In this document: in pieces, positions 218 to 13,017 of the stretch | Position numbering within the stretch: position 1 is the stretch's first letter | How the letters are laid out: each line of letters starts with the position of its first letter | Source of the DNA: Gemmatimonadota bacterium | GTDB taxonomy: Bacteria > 4572-55 > J002 | Assembly (NCBI GenBank): GCA_003697105.1 | Contig: RFFQ01000136.1 | Location: 1-38,226, forward strand | Length of the DNA: 38,226 nt | Direction: 5' to 3' | Program-made: the position numbers and the translations under genes | Notes under the pieces: generated by a model | Databases searched by the model: none | The model's input: only the letters and a program-made list of their open reading frames with translations | Told to the model about the DNA's origin: nothing

Positions 218-748
218 ATGGCTAATTTTGACGCTTTCATCAAAACATTGCTGAAACACGAAGGTGGTTTCGTGGATCATCCCAACGATCCCGGTGGCGC
301 CACCAACAAAGGGATTACCATGAATACCTTCAAGCAACACGCCCAGAGTCTGCTCGGCGTGGAACCGACGCTCGACAATCTAAAAGCATTAACAGACGAA
401 CAAGCGGCGAAGATTTACAAAAAAATGTATTGGGACCGGATTAAAGGCGATGATATGCAATTGCAGGAATTAGCAGAAATCGTTTTTGACTTTTATGTCA
501 ATGCCGGAGCAAATGCTTCCAAACTACTGCAACGGGTGATCTGTGATATGGGACAGCAGATTGCGGTCGATGGTGGGATTGGACCCGCTACCCTGCGTGC
601 CCTCAACCAGCTTGACCAAAAAGAGGTGTATCGCCGTTACAAAAAAGGGCGGCTGGAATACTATCAGAATCTGTGCGAAAAAAATCCAAAATTGAAGGTC
701 TTTTTGAAAGGCTGGACAAATCGCGTGAATTCGTTCCCCGATCTCTAA
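218..748 (+). CDS. GH108 family N-acetylmuramidase (lysozyme-like)
   Basis: This 176-residue protein matches the family of glycoside hydrolase 108 muramidases (also called secretion activator or ZliS-like), which cut the glycan backbone of peptidoglycan. The diagnostic segment is at residues 14-34: HEGG with the likely catalytic Glu15, then DPGGATNKGIT. The C-terminal half (about 85-170) fits the peptidoglycan-binding domain usually fused to it, with NAGAN and DGGIGPATLRAL. There is no signal peptide, as is common for phage endolysins and for members exported by a holin or an unconventional route. The start is supported by GGGGAGA at 203-209. No holin, spanin or other phage gene is nearby, so it may be a domesticated phage lysin or a cell-wall remodelling enzyme. 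The family call is firm; the biological role is open. Confidence 0.88.
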   Translation: MANFDAFIKTLLKHEGGFVDHPNDPGGATNKGITMNTFKQHAQSLLGVEPTLDNLKALTDEQAAKIYKKMYWDRIKGDDMQLQELAEIVFDFYVNAGANASKLLQRVICDMGQQIAVDGGIGPATLRALNQLDQKEVYRRYKKGRLEYYQNLCEKNPKLKVFLKGWTNRVNSFPDL

Positions 749-829: not shown

Positions 830-1909
830 TTATGAATGGCGCACAATCAGGGATGTGTCTTCCCGTTCAACCGCACGACCGACCACTGCCCGCGTACCAA
901 CCCCGTTATCCGCAAGGGCTTCCAGCAGCCGGTCAAGTTTCGCCTCGCTGACGGCAATGAGCAGACCGCCGGACGTTTGCGGGTCGTGCAAGATGGGGAT
1001 TATCTCCGGGTTGACTGTGGGGTCAACCGCAAATTCAGCCGCCACATACGCCGCATTTTTCTTCAATCCGCCCGCCACATTGCCCGCGTTTGCCAGATCG
1101 ACCGCTTCTGGGAAATACGGGAGTTGATCGGCATAAATTTCAACCGTCAAATTTTCCCCATCAACCATCTGATAGAGATGCCCCGAAAATCCAAATCCGG
1201 TAACATCTGTCGCCGCCCGAACGCCAACCGCTTGCATCGCTTGGGCGGCACCGGCGTTGAGTGTTCTCATCACATCAACTGCCTGTTTTAGCAGGTCATC
1301 ACTCAGGTTTTCTTTTTTCAGGGCAGTGGTCAAAATCCCGATCCCCAGCGGCTTCGTCAACACAAACAGGTCACCGATGCGTACCCCTCGGTTGCTTATC
1401 GCTTGGCGTGGCGACACCGTTCCGGTAACCGAGAGTCCGTAAAACAATTCCGGTGCTTTGACGGAATGCCCACCTATCAATGCGACGTTTGCCCGTTTCA
1501 GGGTGGCGATCCCGCCTTGTAAAATTTCACCGAGCACCTCGTAACTCAGGACGGTATCGGAAAACCCAATGATATTGAGCGCGGTCAGAGGCTGTCCGCC
1601 CATAGCATAAACATCACTGAGCGAGTTCGCCGCCGCAATCTCTCCATAATGGAAGGGATCATCCACCACCGGCGTAAAATAATCGACGGTCTGAATCAAC
1701 CCCAGATCATCGCTAAGTTTATAAATTCCAGCATCGGCGTGGGTATCAAATCCAACCAAAATATTGGGATCGGTAAATTTCGGTAAATTCTTGAGAATGT
1801 CGTCCAGGACCCCTGGCGCAATTTTCGACGCTCAGCCCGCACACGCGACCAACTGGGTCAATTTCTGGATTTCGCGTTTACTCCGATTAACGGTCACATC
1901 TTGGAGCAT
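830..1909 (-). CDS. selD: selenide, water dikinase SelD with selenocysteine at residue 26
   Basis: SelD makes selenophosphate from selenide and ATP, the Se donor for selenocysteine and selenouridine synthesis. An uninterrupted frame covers only the region downstream of 1759, but the same frame continues upstream through one TGA (1832-1834) to an ATG at 1907-1909, giving 359 residues, close to the family norm of about 345-350. The residues around the TGA read VACAG-U-ASKIAPGVL. This aligns with the E. coli SelD active site, where Cys17 is followed three residues later by Lys20, so U26 takes the Cys17 place and K29 the Lys20 place. The body carries the expected AIRS/PurM-like features (DTHADAG, LSDVYAMGG, ALIGGHSVKAPE, DVTGFGFSGH, DPQTSGG). 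The start has GAGG five bases upstream and a good promoter at 1968-1996. Automatic callers would truncate this gene. Confidence is very high for the family and high for Sec. Confidence 0.95.
1799..1834 (-). promoter_or_regulatory. candidate bacterial SECIS element with its UGA codon
   Basis: Reading the minus strand, the UGA (1834-1832) is followed by a lower stem GUCG (1829-1826) with CGAC (1802-1799). The upper stem is CCAGG (1816-1812) with CCUGG (1808-1804), closed by a GGU loop; if the last pair is open the loop reads GGGUC. The apical loop starts about 20 bases after the UGA, within the spacing known for bacterial SECIS elements, and contains the GGUC-type loop seen in E. coli fdhF. The pairing is by eye only. 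Confidence 0.7.
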
Positions 1910-2044: not shown

Positions 2045-2515
2045 TTAATTCCGGTGAGACGTACTTTTGAGGGTGTTGATGGTCTTTTTAATTTTGAGGA
2101 GGTGCTGATGATGGGCAACCGCTTTTTTGACGAGGTCTAGCAATGCCGCGGAATCACCGTTTTTGTCCACATAACCAAACGGTTTGTACTGGCGCCGGAG
2201 GGCAGAGGATTCCATAATATCCTGAAAAGCGGAGTAGAAGATGATCGGTAGGTCGTGGTAAACTCGTTTAATTTCGTCATAGACTTGAAAACCGTTTTTT
2301 CCCGGCATTTTAATATCGAGGATTACGGTATCAAACTGGTCGGTCAATTTTGCTAAGCCCTCATCGCCAGAAGCACATGCCACGACATCGTAGTCATCAC
2401 GTAAGCTAATTTTAAGGGCGTTCCGCAAAGTAAAATCATCATCAATGATCATTACTTTGGGCTTGGGAGTACTGGAATCTTCCCGGCGAGAACGTCGAAT
2501 ACGGTGAATTGCCAT
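2045..2515 (-). CDS. receiver-only response regulator
   Basis: This 156-residue protein has one CheY-like receiver domain (about residues 20-138). The acidic cluster DDD is at 25-27, the phosphoacceptor Asp67 is in ILDIKMPG, Ser95 is in FYSAF and Lys118 is in YVDKN. There is a basic N-terminal tail (RIRRSRRE) and a short basic C-terminal helix, but no DNA-binding or enzymatic output domain. Its ATG shares one base with the stop codon of the upstream histidine kinase (TGATG), so the two are translationally coupled and almost certainly a cognate pair. Output must go through protein contact or a phosphorelay. It is the last gene of the seven-gene operon. Confidence 0.92.
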   Translation of the reverse strand: MAIHRIRRSRREDSSTPKPKVMIIDDDFTLRNALKISLRDDYDVVACASGDEGLAKLTDQFDTVILDIKMPGKNGFQVYDEIKRVYHDLPIIFYSAFQDIMESSALRRQYKPFGYVDKNGDSAALLDLVKKAVAHHQHLLKIKKTINTLKSTSHRN

Positions 2516-4545
2516 CAGTTATCACCTGTAGTAGATTTAGGTTCCGGAAATGCGAGCGTAAAGCAAGTCCCTTTGCCTTCCTCACTTTGAACATCGATGG
2601 AGCCGTCGTACATGGTCACCAGTTTAGAAACGACATTTAGCCCTAAACCGGTACCGGTCGTGGGTTTGGTGGAATAAAAGGGTTCAAAAATTTTCTTAAT
2701 TTTATCCGGCGGGATTCCCATCGCGTTATCCCGAATTTCCAATGTTTGCATGCCATTGGATTGGGTGAGTTTAACGTCGATAGTTCGCGGACGCTCATCC
2801 CGCACTTCGAGTAAGGCATCGCGAGCATTCAACACGAGGTTATTAACAATGGAATGAAAGTGATTATCACTGCCGGTAATCGGCGTGGTCTCGGTAATCT
2901 GAGCCGAGAGGGTGATCTGTTGTTCGGCGAACGGGTTGGTGTGTTCGTTCACAATAGCCTGCACCACGTCGCTGAGTCGAACCTGTTCATCGCCGGTAAC
3001 GGTCTGGCGTAGGCGTGCATAGGATAAGATTTCGTTGGTCACTTTCATTCCGCGGTCCACCGATTGGGAGACCACACGAATCACCTCATTCAGGGTAGCG
3101 GCATCGTCGGCAATGTAGCCGAAGCATTCTAAAATATCCGCTTTGGACTCTTCGGGGAGATGGTCTTTAATCAAATGGTATAAATCTTCGGCGGTTTCAG
3201 CAGTTTCTTCAGGTAAAGTCACATCGTCTTTATAGACTTTATCGATCAACAGTTTCGCGCCGGTGAGGGCATTCCGCATTTCATGGGCGAATCCGCCAGC
3301 CATTTGGGTTTCGAGCGCCTCTTTTTCTAGTTTAACAATTTCCGCATGAGCCTCTTCCAACTGGCGCGTTCGCTCTTTGACCCGTTCTTCGAGTTCTTCA
3401 TTCAGTTTGCGAATCTCTTCTTCCGCTTGTTTTCGTTCGGTCAAGTCGTAGATTGCGGCTAAGCGGCAAGGCTCGTTGTTAAAGGTCAAGGGCTGGATCG
3501 AAACGGCGGCCCAAAAGGGTGTCCCATCGATTTTTTTACCCTCAATTTCATATCCGTCAACGGATTGATGCTCCTCCAGATGTTTGCGTAATGGCTCGTG
3601 AAACCGTTCGTCATAAAATTCAAAGGTGCGATGTCCGATGAGTTTTTCAATTGGCAATCCGAACAATTCGCTGGCGGGGTCATTGGCGAACAAGATGGTA
3701 CCATCTTCAATCCGGCTCACTAAAATTGGAACCGGCGTGGTTTCGGTAATCAATCGAAATCGTTTTTCACTGGCTTCCAGATTGACGGTTAATTTACGCA
3801 AGTTCACCCGCATTTTTTCGACATCAGAGACCAGTTGACCGACTTCATCTTCACTGGAAGCATGGATGGAATTTTCCAGATTTCCCGAGGCAATTATCCG
3901 CACCTGATGTGCCAATTCCTCAATAGGGTGGGACATCTGACGACCCAACAGATAAGCCCCGCCGGTGCCCAAAATGATAAACACCAACACCAAGCCTAAT
4001 GAGAAGTACCATAAATCCGCAATGGCGCGGTCGAGGGGGGCCGTATCCAACACGATATAGATAAACCCCAGTGGTTCCGAGGAACGTTGGTCGGCTTCCG
4101 TATTTTCACTATACAGCAAACGGACACTCTCCAGCACCTGACGGCGCCGGTCTCGCCGGATGAGGTTTTCGTGCTTTGCCAGTTGTTCCAGAACAAATGG
4201 ATTTTCCAAGCGGGAAAATTGGGTGTGGCGGTCGGGGTCAGACGTGGCGATGATCATCCCGTTAGCGTAGGCAACAATCAGCAACTGGATATCCCGGTCT
4301 TTGGCGGCAACCTCATTGATGAGGGTTTGAAGATTGGAAAAGGCACTTTCCTGAATCCCTCGGGAGGAAATAATCGAAAAATTCCGATTGATTAAGTCCG
4401 CTTTATCTTCCAAGGCACGGATGAGCAAATGCTCGGAGCGTTTAATAAATACAAACGAGAGCGAAAGCATTGAAATGACAATAATCAAGACAATACCGAT
4501 CATAAATTTATACTTGATGCTCAAATTCTGGAGATTGAAACGCAT
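2515..4545 (-). CDS. membrane PAS sensor histidine kinase
   Basis: This 676-residue kinase has an N-terminal membrane segment (about 13-34), a periplasmic sensor region (about 35-178) and a second membrane segment (about 180-202). These are followed by HAMP (about 202-256), a PAS domain (about 262-375) and a coiled coil (376-415). The kinase core follows: H-box FAHEMRNALTG with His421, N-box NNLVLNARDAL (568-578), G1 DNAMGIPP (606-613) and G2 GTGLGL (631-636). The dimerisation region holds an insert of roughly 60 residues between the H-box helix and its partner helix, rich in acidic residues. The start ATG at 4543-4545 has GAGG upstream. It follows two periplasmic binding protein genes and precedes its receiver partner, so its periplasmic domain may read the state of those binding proteins. 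The ligand is unknown. Confidence 0.93.
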   Translation of the reverse strand: MRFNLQNLSIKYKFMIGIVLIIVISMLSLSFVFIKRSEHLLIRALEDKADLINRNFSIISSRGIQESAFSNLQTLINEVAAKDRDIQLLIVAYANGMIIATSDPDRHTQFSRLENPFVLEQLAKHENLIRRDRRRQVLESVRLLYSENTEADQRSSEPLGFIYIVLDTAPLDRAIADLWYFSLGLVLVFIILGTGGAYLLGRQMSHPIEELAHQVRIIASGNLENSIHASSEDEVGQLVSDVEKMRVNLRKLTVNLEASEKRFRLITETTPVPILVSRIEDGTILFANDPASELFGLPIEKLIGHRTFEFYDERFHEPLRKHLEEHQSVDGYEIEGKKIDGTPFWAAVSIQPLTFNNEPCRLAAIYDLTERKQAEEEIRKLNEELEERVKERTRQLEEAHAEIVKLEKEALETQMAGGFAHEMRNALTGAKLLIDKVYKDDVTLPEETAETAEDLYHLIKDHLPEESKADILECFGYIADDAATLNEVIRVVSQSVDRGMKVTNEILSYARLRQTVTGDEQVRLSDVVQAIVNEHTNPFAEQQITLSAQITETTPITGSDNHFHSIVNNLVLNARDALLEVRDERPRTIDVKLTQSNGMQTLEIRDNAMGIPPDKIKKIFEPFYSTKPTTGTGLGLNVVSKLVTMYDGSIDVQSEEGKGTCFTLAFPEPKSTTGDN

Positions 4546-4562
4546 GAATGCCTCAGCGGGTA

Positions 4563-5519
4563 TTATTTGTGGTCGGAAAGGTCTTCTGGGAAAATTTTAT
4601 CCACGTCATCAAAAATGCTTTCGTCGAGCTGATTCTCATAGAGTTGCTGAGCCACATTCCGGTTGATAACCGTGTAGGTACCAATCGGTGGGGCAATAGA
4701 GATTTGGGCTGGTTGAACATGGTCTTGTCCGATCCGTTTTGCCACCAAAGCCAGTTGGGAACCTAAACTATGATAATCAATGGAAATAGAGAAAAAAGCA
4801 CCCGGTTTGAGAAACGCTTCTGAAAACGCAAGGATGGGCTTTTGTGTCTGTTGAGAAAAACGGATCAAGTCTTGAATCGCGGTGGTATTCCGGTTGTACA
4901 GTTTGGTATCTGCCAACATCCATAACCCGTCGATACGCTTTTGCTGTTTTTTAAGTTTTGCAGTTAGCGTATTGGGATCGTTAATGGCAATTTTAATCAA
5001 TTGGATTCCCATCTGGCTTGCGTGGGCTTGGGCTTCTTCCACAATTTCAGAGGAGACTTCCGGATGGTAGGGCACACCGATAGAATGTATCTGCGGTGAA
5101 ATCAGCCGAAATTGGGTAAACAGGCTCATCGGCGGAATTTCCATCGAGATACCGGTAACATTCTCTTGCCGGAGTTCCGGGTAGCGCTTGTAATTAATCA
5201 CCATAGAAAAGATGATCGGGCGTTCCTGCTCAACCCGAATCGTAGTTTTCGCCGCCAGTAAACCCAAACAGATAATCACATCTGGCTGGTGAAGCTCGAT
5301 AAATTGCTTTACTTTGCGCGAGTCAGCGTTGCCTTCGAGGTCCAAAATGGCTGGATTCGCCTCTGGGAAGCTGTTCTGAAATCCGGTAATCACCTCATCA
5401 ATTTGCCGGAGACTTTTACTTTTGATGATAGCGTAGGTCTCCGTAGCTTCAGCCTGCCCCGCAACGGATAAGACCCCCATTACAATACATAGGATAATCA
5501 GATAATTTCGAGTACTCAT
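4563..5519 (-). CDS. ABC_sub_bind-type periplasmic substrate-binding protein
   Basis: This 318-residue protein starts with a cleavable signal peptide (hydrophobic core YLIILCIVMGVLSVAG, likely cut after AEA near residue 25). The mature part resembles the ABC_sub_bind family (PF04392) of two-lobed periplasmic binding proteins, with segments such as DVIICLGLLAAK, NVTGISMEIPP, SIGVPYHPE and FSEAFLKPGAFFSISIDY. Members usually feed an ABC permease, but no permease or ATPase gene is present. GGAGG lies four bases before the ATG. It sits 10 bases after the other binding-protein gene and 17 bases before the histidine kinase, which points to a sensory role. The ligand is not deducible by eye. Confidence 0.82.
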   Translation of the reverse strand: MSTRNYLIILCIVMGVLSVAGQAEATETYAIIKSKSLRQIDEVITGFQNSFPEANPAILDLEGNADSRKVKQFIELHQPDVIICLGLLAAKTTIRVEQERPIIFSMVINYKRYPELRQENVTGISMEIPPMSLFTQFRLISPQIHSIGVPYHPEVSSEIVEEAQAHASQMGIQLIKIAINDPNTLTAKLKKQQKRIDGLWMLADTKLYNRNTTAIQDLIRFSQQTQKPILAFSEAFLKPGAFFSISIDYHSLGSQLALVAKRIGQDHVQPAQISIAPPIGTYTVINRNVAQQLYENQLDESIFDDVDKIFPEDLSDHK

Positions 5520-5529
5520 TCTGCCTCCG

Positions 5530-6309
5530 CTAGGATTCTACATTAAATCCGGTAATACCAAAATACCGTAAAACGACTTTCGTCGCCCCTTGGTAAGGCA
5601 TATCTTTAAATACGGAAATAAACCGGTCAACATTTTGGGTTTGCGGAAAAACAACGACCTTGGGGTAAGCAATTGGTTTCAGCTCTTGAAGAATATGCAA
5701 TTGGTCAACAACGTTGGGGTTTATTTGCCGTAATTTTTCCAAGCTACTGGGGGTGACAATCGCGCCATCCACTTGGTCAAAACCGAGCGCCATAATGGCA
5801 TCAATATCTTTCGAGACAGACATCACCCGGACATCTTGGGCGCGGAGTTCCTCCGGCAACTGGGCATTCAGATATTCTTGCGATACCGCACCGGCAGAAA
5901 CCGTCGCCAAACTTTTATTTTTCAGATTTTGCACCAATGAGATCGATTTGGAAACCACAAGCACTTTTGTAAACACCGGGGTCTGTTCGTAGTGACCGGC
6001 AAGGATAGATTTCCAATTATAGTGAGATTTCATCGATTCATAATAGTAGGAAGCGACAATCGCCACATCAGGTTTCAGTTGGTCAACGGCGCGTTGAAAA
6101 TCATCTGGATTAGCAAACACGTAAACATCCGCCGTAATGTGCTGGGATTCCAGATAATCGATTAGGTTTTGGCGCACTTTATCTACATTGCTGACGCCGG
6201 CTTCGGGATTATAGATGAAGATCGTCTCCGCTCCCAACAGGGGAGTCCATAAAAGCAAAACACCAAGCAACCAATATTGAAAGTGACTTACACTTGATTT
6301 ATAACGCAT
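5530..6309 (-). CDS. PhnD-like periplasmic binding protein
   Basis: This 259-residue protein has a signal peptide (YWLLGVLLLWTPLLGA, likely cleavage before ETIF near residue 28). Its body resembles the phosphate/phosphonate-type (PhnD, PF12974) solute-binding proteins: an early strand FIYNPEAG, DVAIVASYYYES, KSLATVSAGAVSQEYL and DAIMALGFDQVDGAIVTPSS. It is a little shorter than typical PhnD proteins (about 280-340 residues). GGGAG precedes the ATG. It is the first gene after the three receptor genes and follows an 86-base gap with a hairpin. No ABC permease or ATPase is present, so it may act as a signalling ligand carrier rather than a transporter part. The actual ligand may differ from phosphonate. 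Confidence 0.78.
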   Translation of the reverse strand: MRYKSSVSHFQYWLLGVLLLWTPLLGAETIFIYNPEAGVSNVDKVRQNLIDYLESQHITADVYVFANPDDFQRAVDQLKPDVAIVASYYYESMKSHYNWKSILAGHYEQTPVFTKVLVVSKSISLVQNLKNKSLATVSAGAVSQEYLNAQLPEELRAQDVRVMSVSKDIDAIMALGFDQVDGAIVTPSSLEKLRQINPNVVDQLHILQELKPIAYPKVVVFPQTQNVDRFISVFKDMPYQGATKVVLRYFGITGFNVES

Positions 6310-6365
6310 AACACTCCCATATTTTCCGTCACCATGAGGTACCGGGTTTTAAGAAATAGATTCTG

Positions 6366-6391
6366 GGTCGCCCACGGGTTTATGGGCGACC
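6366..6391 (-). other. intercistronic hairpin inside the receptor/sensor operon
   Basis: GGTCGCCCA at 6366-6374 pairs perfectly with TGGGCGACC at 6383-6391 around an 8-base loop, four bases after the stop codon of the TonB receptor gene on the minus strand. The minus-strand sequence after it is not a T-run, so it is not a standard terminator. It may stabilise the 3' end of the receptor message, attenuate read-through, or mark a processing site. Confidence 0.7.
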
Positions 6392-6395
6392 ATCA

Positions 6396-8630
6396 TTAGT
6401 AGTTCATATGCAACGAGACCAACACGGCACGCCCGGGTTGGGGTAATAACGAGTTATAATAGCTTTGGGAACCCCCCACCCATGTTCCGTCAGATTCAAA
6501 ATAACCGGGCGTAGTACCCGCTCCGGCATCCCGAATACCGGGATGGTCATACTCAGTATCAAATAAATTATAGACATCAACTGAGAGTCCCAAGCCACTC
6601 CCGACGACATTGAGCCATTCCAGATGCACATCGGTAGTGAAAAAGCCATCCACTGCAGGAATGGGGTTGGAATCAACCGTTTCCCGTTCGCCAATAAAGC
6701 GTCCTCGAACGGTACCCCAGACGTTGGAACCAATGGAACTGGTAATTCCAAACCACAATTTATCCATTGCTAAATCGCCAATGGCACCCTCACCCACATG
6801 AATTCCATCTTCAAATTTAGCTTCTTCCGCCTTAAAAATATGAGAATAATAGAGCCAGGCTTTAAGTTGGCGCGCCTCAGTATTTACCAACTGGTAATGA
6901 AAATGATAATCCATTCCGGTGACCGTGCGGTCTCCCAGATTTTTCGCACCATCCGGTGTATTCACGATTGTTTTCGTATTGTTCACCTGCCAAAAACTAA
7001 TCAAATTTTTGGAATTTCGCCAGTAATAACTAGCACTGATTTCAACCGTTTTGGATTCCTCCGGTTTTAGGTTCGGGTCACTCCCGGAGCCCGTCCAACC
7101 ACCGTACAATAAACGCGGAACCGGTTCCTGAAACGCCTCACCATAAAGCACTTTCAGACCCAATTTACCGAGTTTTGCCGTGTAGCCAGAGCGGATGGTA
7201 GTGGCACTGCCATATTTGGAATTATCATCCAGACGAACTCCCAAATGCAATTGATGTACCCCATCTTGTCCCCATAGGTTCTCCAGGCGGTAACGGCTTT
7301 GTACATAAACCCCTATATCCTCGGTGAAAATTCGGTTTTGTGCCTGAAACACCGCCGGTGGCGGCTCAGGATACTGATACGTAGCGGCATCAATCTCACC
7401 AACCGGTTCGTAGCCACCGGGCGTTCCGGCGGCACTTTCCCCATTAATGTCATAGGCTTTTTGCAAATATTTCTGCTCGTACTTCATTCCCGTATTGAAC
7501 GAAAACATCTTATTCACTTTCACATCAAAGTCTTGATTAAAAGAAATACTCGCATTCAATATCTGCCAATAGGAGAACGCCGCCACATAATTTTCGCCAT
7601 CAAAATAAGCATCGACAAAATAGGAATCATTCGAAACATCACTGCGGCGGAAACGCAACATAGAGGTGGAAAATAAATGTTCATTCAAACGGTGTTGATG
7701 GCGAACAAAAAAGCTGTAATCGGGGCGTTTCCAGACCGCTTTATTCTGGACTTTATCCGCCGGAAAAACCAAACCGTACCCGCCATCGGTCACAAAATAC
7801 TGCAACCCCATTTCCGTATCCCCCATATAAAGGCGGGCATCCAATCCGCGATGCCGGCGTGGTGAGGAAAATTCACCGGCAATATTGGGATTATCGACAA
7901 AGCCGCCCCAGATGTTCCGATCCGCATAATATTTATCCTGCAAAAACTCGTAGCGTTGGGCGGCATCTTTATCCAAATCCCCGTTATCTAAATGCACGGC
8001 AAGGCTGAGCCGCAGGTCATCTTTTTTATAAAAATAATGCAGATCGGCAATCTGGGTATCATGGGGACCTCGTGTCAACCGGCTGGAAAAATGCGACCCA
8101 TTTTCCGCCATATCTTTTTGGGTGATGATATTAATGACACCCATAAAGGCATTGGCACCATAGACGGAAGACGCCGGACCATAGACCACTTCAATGCGAT
8201 CCACATACGAAAGAGGGATAGTTAATAGAGGAGTATCCCCGGTATTGTAGTATAGATGGTTCAAAATGACACCATCAACCATTACTAAAAACGGTTCGCC
8301 GATGGTGTTGCGATAACCGCGCCAATAATTTTTAAACTGGGTATCCCCATAAGGTCGGATCACCTCCATACCGGGGAGATCATCCAAAATATGGGAAACT
8401 TCGGTATATCCTCGTTGTTGTAAATCCTCTTGAGTCAGCACAATGACGGTAGCCGGTGCTTCAGAGAGTTTTTCAGCGGTATTCGAGGCGGTTAAAATTT
8501 CCACATCGAGCAAATTTTCAAGCTCATAAAAGCTGAGTTCATCTTGGGCATCATTCAAATCTTCACCGGAACTCAGCCCACATAGCACCGTTATCATGAC
8601 AACCACGATACACCCAAATAAACGACTCAT
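6396..8630 (-). CDS. TonB-dependent outer-membrane receptor (third in operon)
   Basis: This 744-residue protein has a signal peptide (about 1-22), then ELSFYELENLLD and a TonB-box-like EILTAS. The plug domain spans about 53-170 (ATVIVLTQEDLQQRGY, LDDLPGMEV, DRIEVVYGPASSVYGANA, GVINIITQ), followed by a long beta-barrel. The C-terminus ends in an aromatic residue (LHMNY), as expected for BamA recognition. AGGAGG lies upstream of the ATG, and 13 bases separate it from the preceding receptor gene. Such receptors import scarce ligands (siderophores, cobalamin, metals, glycans) using TonB energy. Nothing in the sequence fixes the substrate. It differs strongly from the two other receptors outside the N-terminal motif and plug, so the three may bind different ligands. 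Confidence 0.95.
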   Translation of the reverse strand: MSRLFGCIVVVMITVLCGLSSGEDLNDAQDELSFYELENLLDVEILTASNTAEKLSEAPATVIVLTQEDLQQRGYTEVSHILDDLPGMEVIRPYGDTQFKNYWRGYRNTIGEPFLVMVDGVILNHLYYNTGDTPLLTIPLSYVDRIEVVYGPASSVYGANAFMGVINIITQKDMAENGSHFSSRLTRGPHDTQIADLHYFYKKDDLRLSLAVHLDNGDLDKDAAQRYEFLQDKYYADRNIWGGFVDNPNIAGEFSSPRRHRGLDARLYMGDTEMGLQYFVTDGGYGLVFPADKVQNKAVWKRPDYSFFVRHQHRLNEHLFSTSMLRFRRSDVSNDSYFVDAYFDGENYVAAFSYWQILNASISFNQDFDVKVNKMFSFNTGMKYEQKYLQKAYDINGESAAGTPGGYEPVGEIDAATYQYPEPPPAVFQAQNRIFTEDIGVYVQSRYRLENLWGQDGVHQLHLGVRLDDNSKYGSATTIRSGYTAKLGKLGLKVLYGEAFQEPVPRLLYGGWTGSGSDPNLKPEESKTVEISASYYWRNSKNLISFWQVNNTKTIVNTPDGAKNLGDRTVTGMDYHFHYQLVNTEARQLKAWLYYSHIFKAEEAKFEDGIHVGEGAIGDLAMDKLWFGITSSIGSNVWGTVRGRFIGERETVDSNPIPAVDGFFTTDVHLEWLNVVGSGLGLSVDVYNLFDTEYDHPGIRDAGAGTTPGYFESDGTWVGGSQSYYNSLLPQPGRAVLVSLHMNY

Positions 8631-8643
8631 GGCTATCCCCCTC

Positions 8644-10677
8644 CTAATCTAAGGTGATAGAATATGACACTTTTACTGAAAATTCCCGAGACATATCTGG
8701 GAGTGGTGCGTGAAAACCATCATAAGGTTGAAGATAAACATTTTTTTCATCTAGGAGGTTGTAAATGCCCAATCCGACGTCCAAACCATCATATAGCAAA
8801 TCCGACGCCTGTAAATAGAGATGAAATAGCATTATGGGTTCATATTTTTTCAACATAGGAGATTCGTATTGGTCGGGGGCATAGCCATATCGTTTGCTCA
8901 TGGCAACAACGGAAGGATTAAGAGAGATGTGGTCATTGAGCTTCAGATGGGTACTTGCTGTAAATTTGTGCGCGGGGAAGGCTAAATGTAATTGATCTTC
9001 TCCCGGCACCTGATAATCCGGCACTTTATCATAAGCAACTTGATAAAATGAATAGGTTAGATTCGCATAACCCCGGTTGTTACGGTATTTATACTCAACT
9101 TCGATGCCTTGCGTACCGCTCTCCTCAAAATTGAGATAATATTCGATGTCAAACACCTCATCATATACATACACAATCGGGTCTTTAATTTTCGTATGGT
9201 AAACATTGGCAACCACAGCATTGTTATCCGATAATTGATACCCCAATTCCACCTCGTACACTGATGTATTTTCGGTATCGATCTTTTTGTGGATTGCGCC
9301 TTCTGCAATCCCGATCTGATTCGTGCGAACATGTTCAATAGCGGGGGCGCGAAAAGCAGCGCTCACCAGTGCTTTGATATGAAATCGCTTGCGCGTATGA
9401 GTTAAAGCGATTCGGGGTACAAAGGAATTGCCATACGCATCGTGATCATCGTATCGCGCACCAAGCGTCAGGTTAAACCAATCCCGATTGATCAGTAATT
9501 GGCTCAACAGCGCAATATTGTTGTAATCAACCTCTTTTTTGCCGTCATAATAGTTTTCTGGGAGGGTTTTATCGCCGACGACCGCTTTTTCATTAAAAAA
9601 CTCACCGCCCACGATCAGATTGGTTTGTGGATTAATATCGTACGATGCTACCAACTTAGTTTTGATCTGGTCAACATGGGTATCCAAAAAAAGATAATCA
9701 TCCGGTGCAACTTCATCATTAAACCATGAATATTGACGCTTGAAATCAATTTGAGGTGTCAACGTCAGATGTTCGCCCCAATGGTAGGTGTATTTTATTT
9801 CTCCAAAATAGGAATCAAAATCGATAAAAGGGGGTTGGGGGTACACTATATCATCTACGACGGCTTCATCAAAAGCATCTCGTTGGGTGGTGTGGTACTT
9901 GTCCATCACCCAGCGCGCGCTAAATCCTTTATAACCCAAACTCAGACTCACATTCATCGGGTTTAAATCAGAATTATGCGTCATGTCATAGGTTTGCTCG
10001 TAAAAATCGGTGTAGGTGCGGTCACTACGGATGCCCTCACCGCCAAAGATCGATGCACTCAGGTGCAAATGGTCAAAAACACGACCATACGCTAAACTCA
10101 CCTGCCGCCGGGCAGTCGTATTGGTTGTACTGCCATACACACCCGTTAAAAACAGCCCGTTTAAGTCCGTTGCGCGTTTGGTGGTAATGTTGATCACGGC
10201 GAGTTCCGCATAGCCACCGTACAACGGAGACCCGGGACCCCGGATAATTTCAATCGATTGAATGAAATCAACGGGAAAATGGTGTCCAAACTGAAGCGTA
10301 GAATATAAGCGTTCGTTGTATTCTAATCCATCGATCAGGAGCAACACCTTGCCTTCGTTTGCCCAATTTCCGCGCATTCCCACGCCAACCACGCCCTGTA
10401 CATCCACACCAAAATCAAACCCGGGCACCAAGCGCAAGACATCAATCAGATCACGAGCACCCGAATGTTGAATTTGTTCCGCCGTAATGCGGGTCACAAT
10501 TCCGGGAGATTCGCGTAAAGTCAACGGTTTAATCGAAGCAACCGTGACGACCTCATCCAACAGATTTTCAAGCTCGTAAAAACTCAATTCTTCCTCGGCA
10601 CTAGACTGTGCCCACACGAGGTGCCACGGCAAGAGTAAGCTCACCAGAACCCCCATTAAACACCATAGTTTAGGCAT
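8644..10677 (-). CDS. TonB-dependent outer-membrane receptor (second in operon)
   Basis: This 677-residue protein has a signal peptide ending near WAQ (residue 24), the shared segment EEELSFYELENLLD, a TonB-box-like VVTVAS (about 43-48) and a plug domain. Plug motifs include ITAEQIQHSGARDLID, LRLVPGFDF, VLLLIDGLEYNE, IEIIRGPGSPLYGG and AVINITTKR. The barrel is rich in alternating polar and aromatic strands. The C-terminal residues are SYSITLD, so it lacks the usual terminal aromatic residue. AAGGGGG precedes the ATG at 10675-10677. The gene lies 15 bases after the first receptor gene and 13 bases before the third. The substrate is unknown. Confidence 0.95.
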   Translation of the reverse strand: MPKLWCLMGVLVSLLLPWHLVWAQSSAEEELSFYELENLLDEVVTVASIKPLTLRESPGIVTRITAEQIQHSGARDLIDVLRLVPGFDFGVDVQGVVGVGMRGNWANEGKVLLLIDGLEYNERLYSTLQFGHHFPVDFIQSIEIIRGPGSPLYGGYAELAVINITTKRATDLNGLFLTGVYGSTTNTTARRQVSLAYGRVFDHLHLSASIFGGEGIRSDRTYTDFYEQTYDMTHNSDLNPMNVSLSLGYKGFSARWVMDKYHTTQRDAFDEAVVDDIVYPQPPFIDFDSYFGEIKYTYHWGEHLTLTPQIDFKRQYSWFNDEVAPDDYLFLDTHVDQIKTKLVASYDINPQTNLIVGGEFFNEKAVVGDKTLPENYYDGKKEVDYNNIALLSQLLINRDWFNLTLGARYDDHDAYGNSFVPRIALTHTRKRFHIKALVSAAFRAPAIEHVRTNQIGIAEGAIHKKIDTENTSVYEVELGYQLSDNNAVVANVYHTKIKDPIVYVYDEVFDIEYYLNFEESGTQGIEVEYKYRNNRGYANLTYSFYQVAYDKVPDYQVPGEDQLHLAFPAHKFTASTHLKLNDHISLNPSVVAMSKRYGYAPDQYESPMLKKYEPIMLFHLYLQASDLLYDGLDVGLGIYNLLDEKNVYLQPYDGFHAPLPDMSREFSVKVSYSITLD

Positions 10678-10692
10678 GGAAACCCCCTTTCA

Positions 10693-12909
10693 TCAAAAGT
10701 GGTATCGAAATCGTGCCCAAAAACTGGTCTCTTCTAAAGCAGGCGTGCCATCTGATAAATCGGGACCCTCTGCATTACTGTTCATCGGGTATAAATTATC
10801 CTGATTTAGCAAGTTTTTAATATTGACCGACACGTCGATTTGCGGGGTAAATTCATAAATGGCACCCACATTAACAATATGATTCCCATCCACCGCTTGA
10901 TCGCGCGGAGAATACCATTGATAATAATAGAGATAATTCATGGCGATGGTAGATTGAGGTGTTGGCGTGGCAATCACATTCAGGCGTGTCACATTTTCGG
11001 GGAAAGCTTTAAAGTTGAGGTCATTTGTGAGGTACATACTGGCGCGTTGTTGGTCAGGGGCATCGCTAATTTTCACCAAAGCATGGCTCAGATTCAGGCT
11101 ATATTTTTCCTGCGTGTAGGTCAAGCTAGCTTCCACGCCGTATTGTTTAATTTTCCCATCGTTATTTTTGAAGAACCAGTACCCGTTCCAATCCCCGGGA
11201 ACATCCGAACCAATTGTAACCATTGGGAAGACCTCCGGATCGCGCCAGATCACCCCCACATCAATCACGTTTTCAATGACATTATAAAACCCAACCGCAT
11301 CAAGAACCACATTCGGGGCGGGTTTGTAATTTGCCGCTAGCTCAAAACTACTCATACTTTCGGGTTCGGTTTCTGTTTGATCCGGCTCATACGCCCCGGT
11401 TGGATTGCCATTCGCATCATAGATGGGAATTTGCGCCGCATGAATTTGATCAAAATTTTCACCCGATAACAAACCATCATTCCGGTAACCGCCCCCATAA
11501 TGGACGCCTGCCGCCCCACGAAAACCGGTCTGCCACGAAAAACGGAGCCGCAAATCATCGGTGGGGACATATAATACTCCCAAACGCGGTGACAGATGAC
11601 TCCCCCAGAAAGGATGCTGGTCATACCGGAACGCCCCGAATATATCCAATTGCGGTGCCATCTGGTAAAAATCTTCAACAACTAGACTCAACACATCAAT
11701 TTCATCAGGATACCCCCACGTCCGTTGCACATTTGCCTGTGGTAGGGCTTCCAACGTTGCTTCATTTAACACATTGATAATAAAATTATCGCCGTTGATG
11801 TTTTCCTGACCAAATTCAAAGCGCCGGTATTCCGCCCCAATTGCCAACTGATGGTGCTCAAAAAGATGATTTAGATTCAAAATAGAAGTAATCCCGTAGC
11901 GGTTTTCGCGAGTGCCCCCAGCCGTTAATCCCATCACCGAAGAGAGGAAAAAATCATCACGAGCCAGCAGTGCCCGCGTTCGCAAGGTGATATGTTCCGA
12001 AAATGAATAATGATGCTCTAGCCCTAGCATCGTCAACACTTCCCGGGTCCGGTTGCGGTCACGATAAAAGTTGTATAGGTCTTTTTGTTGGTCAACATAA
12101 AGCAAATTGAGTTTAAGCTGCCCGGATTCTATTGCGCCAAATGCCGTGGTGTTATCCGTCCGTTTAAGGCGAGTGCCAATATCTGCCACAGTACCGCCAG
12201 TTATTCCTTCATTTGTTTTATTGAGTGCCCAGCCTTCTTCTCGCAACTCTTGCCCATCATAGCGCGAACTGGAAAGATAGAAATAGCTGGAGAGCGCATC
12301 CGTCTGGATGGACGTCTCCAGCGCACCAAGGGCGAGACGATCTAAACCACCAGAGCCGGTGATAGCGGATTGAGCCATATTTTGCGAGGCACTACCCGAC
12401 TTCGTCACAATATTAATAACACCCAACAACGCACCCTGACCTAACGTTACGGAACCGGGACCTCGAATCACTTGAACGTGGTCAATCCACTCATAATTGA
12501 TTGTGTTCAAAATCGCATCGGGAGGTCCCCAAAACCATTCGGTATTCAGGTAATGTCCATTCATCAACAGCATCACTTTGGAATTGTTATCCGGGGCTAA
12601 TCCTCGAAAACCGGCAATGATGTCATCTTGGTCTTCAACAAGAAAAAACCCGGGAACATACATCATGATCGCTTCACTGAGGGTGCGGGCGCCACTGAGC
12701 TCGAGTTGGCGGTGGGAGATGGTGGTGATGGAGACCGGTTGCCGCTCCTTTGCGGTTACAACATTCGAGGCAACGGTGATATTGGAAACATTTAGCAGAT
12801 GTTCCAACTCGTAAAAGAGGAGTTCTTCTTCTGCAGAGTCTTGGGCAAAAAGGGAAGAAGGATACATACCTAAGCTAAGAAGCACACACATCACACCCAA
12901 CATACGCAT
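10693..12909 (-). CDS. TonB-dependent outer-membrane receptor (first in operon)
   Basis: This 738-residue protein opens the operon. It has a signal peptide ending near FAQ (residue 23), the shared EEELLFYELEHLLN, a TonB-box-like NITVAS and a plug domain (ITTISHRQLELSGA, AGFRGLAP, VMLLMNGHYLNTEW, HVQVIRGPGSVTLGQGA, GVINIVTKSG). A beta-barrel follows and ends in the aromatic FRYHF. An ideal AAGGAGG lies seven bases before the ATG at 12907-12909; an ATG two codons later is possible but less well placed. A promoter overlapping an inverted repeat lies about 70-110 bases upstream. The transported ligand cannot be inferred. Confidence 0.95.
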   Translation of the reverse strand: MRMLGVMCVLLSLGMYPSSLFAQDSAEEELLFYELEHLLNVSNITVASNVVTAKERQPVSITTISHRQLELSGARTLSEAIMMYVPGFFLVEDQDDIIAGFRGLAPDNNSKVMLLMNGHYLNTEWFWGPPDAILNTINYEWIDHVQVIRGPGSVTLGQGALLGVINIVTKSGSASQNMAQSAITGSGGLDRLALGALETSIQTDALSSYFYLSSSRYDGQELREEGWALNKTNEGITGGTVADIGTRLKRTDNTTAFGAIESGQLKLNLLYVDQQKDLYNFYRDRNRTREVLTMLGLEHHYSFSEHITLRTRALLARDDFFLSSVMGLTAGGTRENRYGITSILNLNHLFEHHQLAIGAEYRRFEFGQENINGDNFIINVLNEATLEALPQANVQRTWGYPDEIDVLSLVVEDFYQMAPQLDIFGAFRYDQHPFWGSHLSPRLGVLYVPTDDLRLRFSWQTGFRGAAGVHYGGGYRNDGLLSGENFDQIHAAQIPIYDANGNPTGAYEPDQTETEPESMSSFELAANYKPAPNVVLDAVGFYNVIENVIDVGVIWRDPEVFPMVTIGSDVPGDWNGYWFFKNNDGKIKQYGVEASLTYTQEKYSLNLSHALVKISDAPDQQRASMYLTNDLNFKAFPENVTRLNVIATPTPQSTIAMNYLYYYQWYSPRDQAVDGNHIVNVGAIYEFTPQIDVSVNIKNLLNQDNLYPMNSNAEGPDLSDGTPALEETSFWARFRYHF

Positions 12910-12977: not shown

Positions 12978-12995
12978 GGTATGTAGCACCATACC
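12978..12995. promoter_or_regulatory. inverted repeat overlapping the receptor operon -10 (candidate operator)
   Basis: GGTATG (12978-12983) and CATACC (12990-12995) form a perfect 6-base inverted repeat with a 6-base spacer, covering the predicted -10 box of the receptor operon. This position suits a repressor. No known operator (for example a Fur box) is recognised, so the binding protein is unknown. Confidence 0.45.
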
Positions 12996-13017
12996 ACACA
13001 CCAAAAAGGGTTGTCAA
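12988..13017 (-). promoter_or_regulatory. sigma70-like promoter of the receptor/sensor operon
   Basis: On the minus strand a perfect TTGACA (13017-13012) is followed after 18 bases by TATGGT (12993-12988). Transcription would begin near 12981, giving a leader of about 70 bases before the first receptor gene. It is the only convincing promoter that I see for the seven-gene run. Confidence 0.6.

Follow-up and report, generated by a model that had tools for sequence, protein, structure and literature searches.

Gram-negative bacteria must sense molecules that are too large for porins, and we know of few routes that lead from the cell surface to cytoplasmic signaling. Sensing driven by binding proteins and trans-envelope signaling by TonB receptors are both known already. 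Solute-binding proteins are able to switch on several receptor types, among them kinases, chemoreceptors, c-di-GMP enzymes, and Ser/Thr kinases (PMC9602780), and AioX and ArrX are the first components of kinase systems, AioX binding arsenite through Cys106 (PMC5908839). Across the envelope, YfiB sequesters YfiR (PMC4655355), and the periplasmic detector domain of GacS/BarA is available as a solved structure (PMC5595915). The locus described here places TonB-type receptors, two periplasmic binding proteins, and a two-component pair in one putative operon.

The operon comprises seven minus-strand open reading frames at positions 2045 to 12909 of the window (the whole 38,226-nucleotide stretch of DNA that was analyzed, contig C12 of the host assembly). 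The first-pass annotation had described this layout, and all of the open reading frames were recovered where it placed them (Table 1), with intergenic gaps of 15, 13, 86, 10, and 17 bases and a 1-base overlap between the kinase and regulator genes. It had also placed a single good promoter ahead of them. A site is indeed present upstream of TBR1 (TTGACA-18-TATGGT, with TG ahead of the second hexamer and 10 of 12 matches), but sites of this kind do not become rarer when the DNA is shuffled (29 found versus 21.1 expected), and one transcript for the whole operon is therefore only plausible from the sequence. The 86-base gap folds at −31.8 kcal/mol (z −3.0), and 1 of 200 shuffles was equally good. 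Its 10-bp hairpin, which the first-pass annotation did not mention, lacks a T run and is unique in the window; a scan for terminators gave nothing above chance. Our guess is that the hairpin may act in message processing or adjust how much receptor message there is relative to binding-protein message (stoichiometry).

Table 1. Features of the operon and its upstream region, in window coordinates
Feature	Position	Strand	Evidence
TBR1, TonB-type outer-membrane receptor, 738 aa	10693..12909	-	Plug 7.3e-12, barrel 1.4e-24
TBR2, TonB-type receptor, 677 aa	8644..10677	-	Plug 6.1e-16
TBR3, TonB-type receptor, 744 aa	6396..8630	-	Plug 5.2e-19, barrel 2.1e-13
Perfect 10-bp GC-rich hairpin, TBR3/PhnD-like gap	6366..6391	-	Fold of gap
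PhnD-like periplasmic binding protein, 259 aa	5530..6309	-	Phosphonate-bd 2.3e-10 (Pfam)
ASB, ABC_sub_bind periplasmic binding protein, 318 aa	4563..5519	-	PF04392 1.9e-25
HK, histidine kinase, 676 aa	2515..4545	-	Pfam HATPase_c/PAS/HAMP
RR, receiver-only response regulator, 156 aa	2045..2515	-	Response_reg 2.3e-18, without output domain
Sigma-70-type promoter-like site	12988..13017	-	Just upstream of TBR1

On its borders the operon has selD, a gene encoding a GH108 muramidase, and further, unrelated genes; no arsenic enzyme genes adjoin it. The selD gene (selenophosphate synthetase; 830-1909, minus strand) contains an in-frame TGA at 1832-1834 that is read as selenocysteine in VACAGU, and the program's list of open reading frames holds only the 309-aa part after this codon. 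Next to it lies the phage-type muramidase gene (Glyco_hydro_108 plus PG_binding_3; 218-748, plus strand).

Taken as a whole, the operon probably encodes a trans-envelope sensing pathway and is an instance of a recurrent module with a swappable output. The TonB-type receptors would take up a ligand from the cell surface, in a TonB-driven step, and release it in the periplasm. There, judging from its family, ASB would bind the ligand with the PhnD-like protein as a putative obligate partner; the capture itself may be the work of ASB alone or of both proteins. The loaded binding protein is then proposed to dock on the PAS/Cache-like periplasmic domain of HK, a step with comparative support in which the contact itself is predicted. 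HK would signal to the receiver-only RR by phosphotransfer, as suggested by the protein families and the overlap of the two genes. Both binding proteins would thus be signaling subunits and not parts of an ABC importer. In the module at large, the receptor and the binding protein would stay, and the output would swap among a kinase, a chemoreceptor, c-di-GMP enzymes, a SpoIIE phosphatase, and a Ser/Thr kinase.

The assignment of three genes to TonB receptors, made in the first pass, is borne out by Pfam, with a Plug domain in all three products and the barrel model matched by TBR1 and TBR3; TBR2 gave no match to the barrel model at E 0.01. Segments resembling a TonB box were recognized by eye in each protein (SNITVAS, before the plug, in TBR1; EVVTVAS in TBR2; VEILTAS in TBR3), and the host genome encodes four TonB_C proteins together with 22 plug proteins. 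No STN domain (PF07660) was matched in the receptors and no FecR or FecI gene in the operon, and TBR3 reached no NCBIfam equivalog. The closest relative of TBR2 in its own genome is the ASB-linked receptor of contig C44. TBR1 has a close paralogue, with an N-terminal extension, on contig C57; a 2023-aa TIR plus WD40 protein, this paralogue, and a Reg_prop histidine kinase are encoded there in a row.

An acidic stretch of the form EEELxFYELExLL precedes the TonB-box-like segment in all three receptors. This feature would fit a different path, in which the receptors feed no ligand and an outside ligand instead changes their periplasmic face, so that the receptor holds, releases, or presents the binding protein in a YfiB/YfiR-like manner and the binding protein switches the kinase. 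Such a path is also favored by an operon on host contig C24 (L263, 5454-10213) that shares the architecture of the window operon, with a YfiR-family protein replacing the binding proteins (TonB-type receptor, YfiR/DUF4154, CHASE8 histidine kinase, and receiver), and by several genomes that keep a lone plug protein, which adjoins ASB (G071, G237, G284, G292, and G309). However, related acidic stretches occur in other receptors of the host genome, including ones unlinked to binding proteins, and TonB-box-like segments and TonB proteins are both present. Moreover, the binding proteins retain whole two-lobed PBP domains, and this points to ligand binding. Signaling by receptors that deliver no ligand would suit the data as well but is unlikely in our judgment.

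The PhnD-like protein carries a signal peptide (by eye), contains no cysteine, and gave a model with a pLDDT of 87. By sequence, its nearest solved relatives are BstB, ArrX, PhnD, and AioX; a comparison of folds gives BstB, ArrX, and AioX. The STSG anion-binding loop (NGDPNSTSG, 3p7i) aligns with a TSLGSETQ-type segment in the profile and with ATVSAGAVSQ in the window protein. Identity as a phosphonate binder (PhnD function) is unlikely because the STSG loop of E. coli PhnD is missing, and AioX-type arsenite sensing is likewise unlikely given the lack of cysteine.

A profile of the PhnD partners of ASB was run on 386 genomes and returned ten strong members (E below 1e-79), followed by a gap to 1e-24. 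All ten lie near an ASB gene; the profile was built from these same ten proteins, and the search thus adds only the absence of further members. The arrangements around the pair vary. Receptor-PhnD-ASB-chemoreceptor is found twice in G205, PhnD-ASB-SpoIIE in G238, and a PhnD-hybrid kinase unit divergent from ASB-receptor in G189. G019 has PhnD-ASB followed by a truncated sensor, a fragment that carries the family sensor domain (2.7e-9). PhnD-ASB-receptor-lipoprotein occurs in G133 and G270, and PhnD-ASB alone in G099 and G365. Directly after PhnD-ASB-receptor, lipoproteins with a 5'-nucleotidase C-terminal domain are encoded at L107 (8455-9549) and L109 (4694-7162), a possible lead to the ligand.

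A profile made from 14 ASB proteins was run on the 386 genomes and found matches in 106, yielding 133 usable loci with 149 ASB genes, whose neighbors were annotated with profiles built for this analysis. Only one sampled genome (G001) is a relative within the host's class; the other genomes share only its domain. The ASB genes divide according to the presence of a permease. Of the 22 with a permease in the same directon, none has a receptor and one has a sensor. Of the 127 without a permease, a receptor accompanies 43 and a sensor domain lies near 63; the directon of 84 of these 127 holds no receptor. Plug proteins were counted in 80 surveyed genomes, a receptor neighbor being one within four genes of ASB. 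From this plug density, 1.8 of the 116 testable non-permease ASB genes would be expected to have such a neighbor versus the 43 observed, with a maximum of 11 over 200,000 simulations. These 43 genes are spread over 32 of 65 genomes, and the five genomes named above, whose lone plug protein lies beside ASB, count for the sensing pathway as well. Some permease-linked ASB genes stem from organisms without an outer membrane; in plug-bearing genomes alone, a receptor stands beside 0 of 9 permease-linked ASB genes versus 43 of 116 others (p 0.03).

The same division is seen in the ASB tree, where a 27-row clade (support 98) takes in almost all of the permease-linked genes. A separate nine-row clade (support 88) contains the window ASB; it includes every PhnD-linked ASB long enough to be placed plus L090, where a PhnD gene lies 5 kb from ASB. 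The nearest NCBIfam model for the window protein, TrpX, scored 63.8 bits, below its cut-off of 390. Searches of plasmids gave only remote matches.

The host assembly (4.18 Mb) contains four ASB genes, and in each case a gene for a membrane sensor comes next, at most 17 bases away, namely, a histidine kinase in the window and on C187 and a methyl-accepting chemotaxis protein on C44 and C143. On C44 a TonB-type receptor precedes ASB. No ABC permease is encoded in the operon, and no BPD_transp_2 permease (PF02653; the permease family of ASB importers, as checked for locus L039) exceeded the cut-off in the host genome. None of the four ASB proteins can therefore belong to a normal PF04392 importer with that permease.

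These results bear on several statements of the first-pass annotation. Its observation that the binding proteins come without an ABC permease holds in the operon and, for PF02653 above the cut-off, across the genome, and homologues linked to permeases prove to be a separate clade, with 127 of the 149 ASB genes free of a permease. The same gene classes are found together across distant families, which is the conservation of gene order that it had put forward as a check. As to whether the full set stays together, linkage to receptors and sensors recurs, but the set varies, and 4 of the 10 PhnD/ASB pairs (L076, L078, L107, and L109) have no recognized adjoining sensor. The chain from receptor to binding protein to kinase is supported in part: a common sensor domain favors its step from binding protein to kinase, whereas import of the ligand by the receptors and contact of the PhnD-like protein with the kinase are putative.

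Of 117 testable ASB genes, 50 (from 43 genomes) have a gene for a signaling protein immediately downstream, at a median gap of 4.5 bases and often with a 4-base overlap. Pfam identified these outputs as histidine kinases, hybrid kinases, chemoreceptors, HD-GYP proteins, and SpoIIE proteins, and a diguanylate cyclase (GGDEF) output was found with a profile built for this analysis. No open reading frame in the survey combines ASB with a sensor output domain. Import with local regulation hardly accounts for such an exchange of outputs, whereas a binding protein that serves as the sensor's input subunit would account for it readily. At six loci (L029, L031, L033, L034, L119, and L178), a Ser/Thr kinase fused to an FGE-sulfatase-type domain is encoded upstream of ASB, and at some of these only, a TonB-type receptor lies between the kinase and ASB.

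HK consists of a transmembrane segment (residues 16-34), a PAS/Cache-like periplasmic domain, a second transmembrane segment (residues 174-192), HAMP, PAS, a weak HisKA, and HATPase, and most ASB-linked sensors likewise have two transmembrane segments flanking a periplasmic loop of about 120-180 residues. At E below 1e-3, 38 of 55 such loops are linked across differing outputs, the window HK loop standing single; at a looser E of 0.01, 46 loops are joined, and the evidence used is not this linkage but a profile search. The profile was made from 35 loops, with the host genome left out, and run on the 24 HAMP-containing sensors of the host. The chemoreceptors of C143 and C44 ranked first (5e-18 and 6e-18), followed by a kinase of C114 (1e-8) and the window HK (5e-7), with the remaining twenty above 1e-3. 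All three ASB-linked HAMP sensors thus fall in the top 4 of 24, for which the chance is 0.002. The C114 kinase is among these top-scoring sensors yet is not linked to ASB; its gene (L254, 5950-7458) has no binding protein nearby and lies beside ferredoxin and membrane redox genes.

The window HK domain is a divergent member of this group, with 12-20 percent identity and a best pairwise match at E 0.0097, and an iterated search with it alone returned no relatives. Its model has a pLDDT of 87, and the best PDB matches are the sensor domains of WalK, DctB, and CitA. The family profile matches the periplasmic domain of GacS (PDB 5o7j) at 1.6e-9. By these comparisons, the predicted periplasmic domains of ASB-linked sensors, that of the window HK among them, fall into a single family that is PAS/Cache-like and related to GacS. 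A sensor domain common to ASB-linked kinases and chemoreceptors supports the proposal that the binding protein would act on the kinase. Against it stand the divergence of the window HK domain, the C114 kinase without linkage to ASB, and the fact that PAS/Cache domains are common.

The operon could instead serve ordinary nutrient import, with the permeases encoded elsewhere and the two-component pair merely regulating the operon. ABC importers are the best-known setting of both binding-protein families, operons that carry their own regulators are common, and L107 and L109 pair a receptor with binding proteins without a sensor. Still, the host genome has no BPD_transp_2 over the cut-off, the ASBs that do accompany permeases branch apart, and simple regulation of an operon would hardly call for the exchange among chemoreceptor, SpoIIE, HD-GYP, and GGDEF outputs or for a sensor domain common to ASB-linked sensors. 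PhnE-type permeases may be encoded elsewhere, and we hold plain import to be quite improbable. That abundant families came to adjoin by chance, as the 22 plug proteins and many sensors of the host genome might invite one to suppose, is most improbable given 43 receptor neighbors versus 1.8 expected, an order and tight gaps that repeat across many families, and a PhnD/ASB pair that is never far apart.

Beyond the window, the prospects are even that the sensing pathway represents a widespread, undescribed class of three-layer sensor, built from a TonB-type receptor, a PF04392 (plus PF12974) binding protein, and a GacS-like PAS/Cache membrane sensor, with the output (histidine kinase, chemoreceptor, GGDEF, HD-GYP, or SpoIIE) freely exchanged. 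Ser/Thr kinases occur in gene clusters related to this class. If true, cells could respond directly, through chemotaxis, c-di-GMP, or phosphorylation, to ligands whose size bars them from porins. If these receptor and binding-protein sets act as sensors, the names "ABC transporter substrate-binding protein" and "TonB-dependent receptor" would be wrong for many genes, and outer-membrane receptors would have a testable general link to chemotaxis, c-di-GMP, and two-component outputs.

The first-pass annotation was aware of no description of the full set, and this agrees with our search of part of the literature, which found no paper that joins TonB-receptor signaling with binding-protein sensing or describes this set. 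Several known systems share parts of it. In the AioX-AioS-AioR and ArrX systems, as here, a PF12974 protein is encoded near a histidine kinase and a regulator without a permease (PMC5908839). In the window, the ASB gene sits between the PF12974 gene and the kinase gene; unlike the AioX systems, the window has no cysteine in this protein and no adjoining arsenite oxidase genes, and it has ASB as a second binding protein and three outer-membrane receptors. In LuxP-LuxQ, MBP-Tar, GlnH-GlnX, and other such pairs, a membrane receptor has a binding protein dock on its sensor domain (PMC9602780), as is proposed here. The window differs from them in its sensor domain and in having two binding proteins together, and no description of an ASB family linked to outer-membrane receptors was found in the literature consulted; the LuxQ model matched only the kinase core of HK, at 74 bits versus a cut-off of 1200. 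With GacS, the likeness is the match of the sensor-domain family profile, whereas GacS is a hybrid kinase. No binding-protein partner for GacS was found among the titles and abstracts searched, and the match raises the question of whether binding proteins give GacS-like domains their input.

Other systems resemble the operon in the order of its layers. YfiB-YfiR-YfiN likewise has outer-membrane, periplasmic, and inner-membrane parts in series (PMC4655355), but unlike the window parts, YfiB is a lipoprotein and not a TonB-type barrel, and YfiR is not a binding protein; by Pfam, both a DUF4154 YfiR and an OmpA-like YfiB are absent from the window operon. In FecA-FecR-FecI, too, a TonB-type receptor heads a signaling path, whereas the window operon has neither an STN domain nor a sigma/anti-sigma pair and has binding proteins and a histidine kinase instead. 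Compared with the TrpX-type PF04392 importer, the nearest in model terms, the window ASB comes without a permease or ATPase and from a separate clade.
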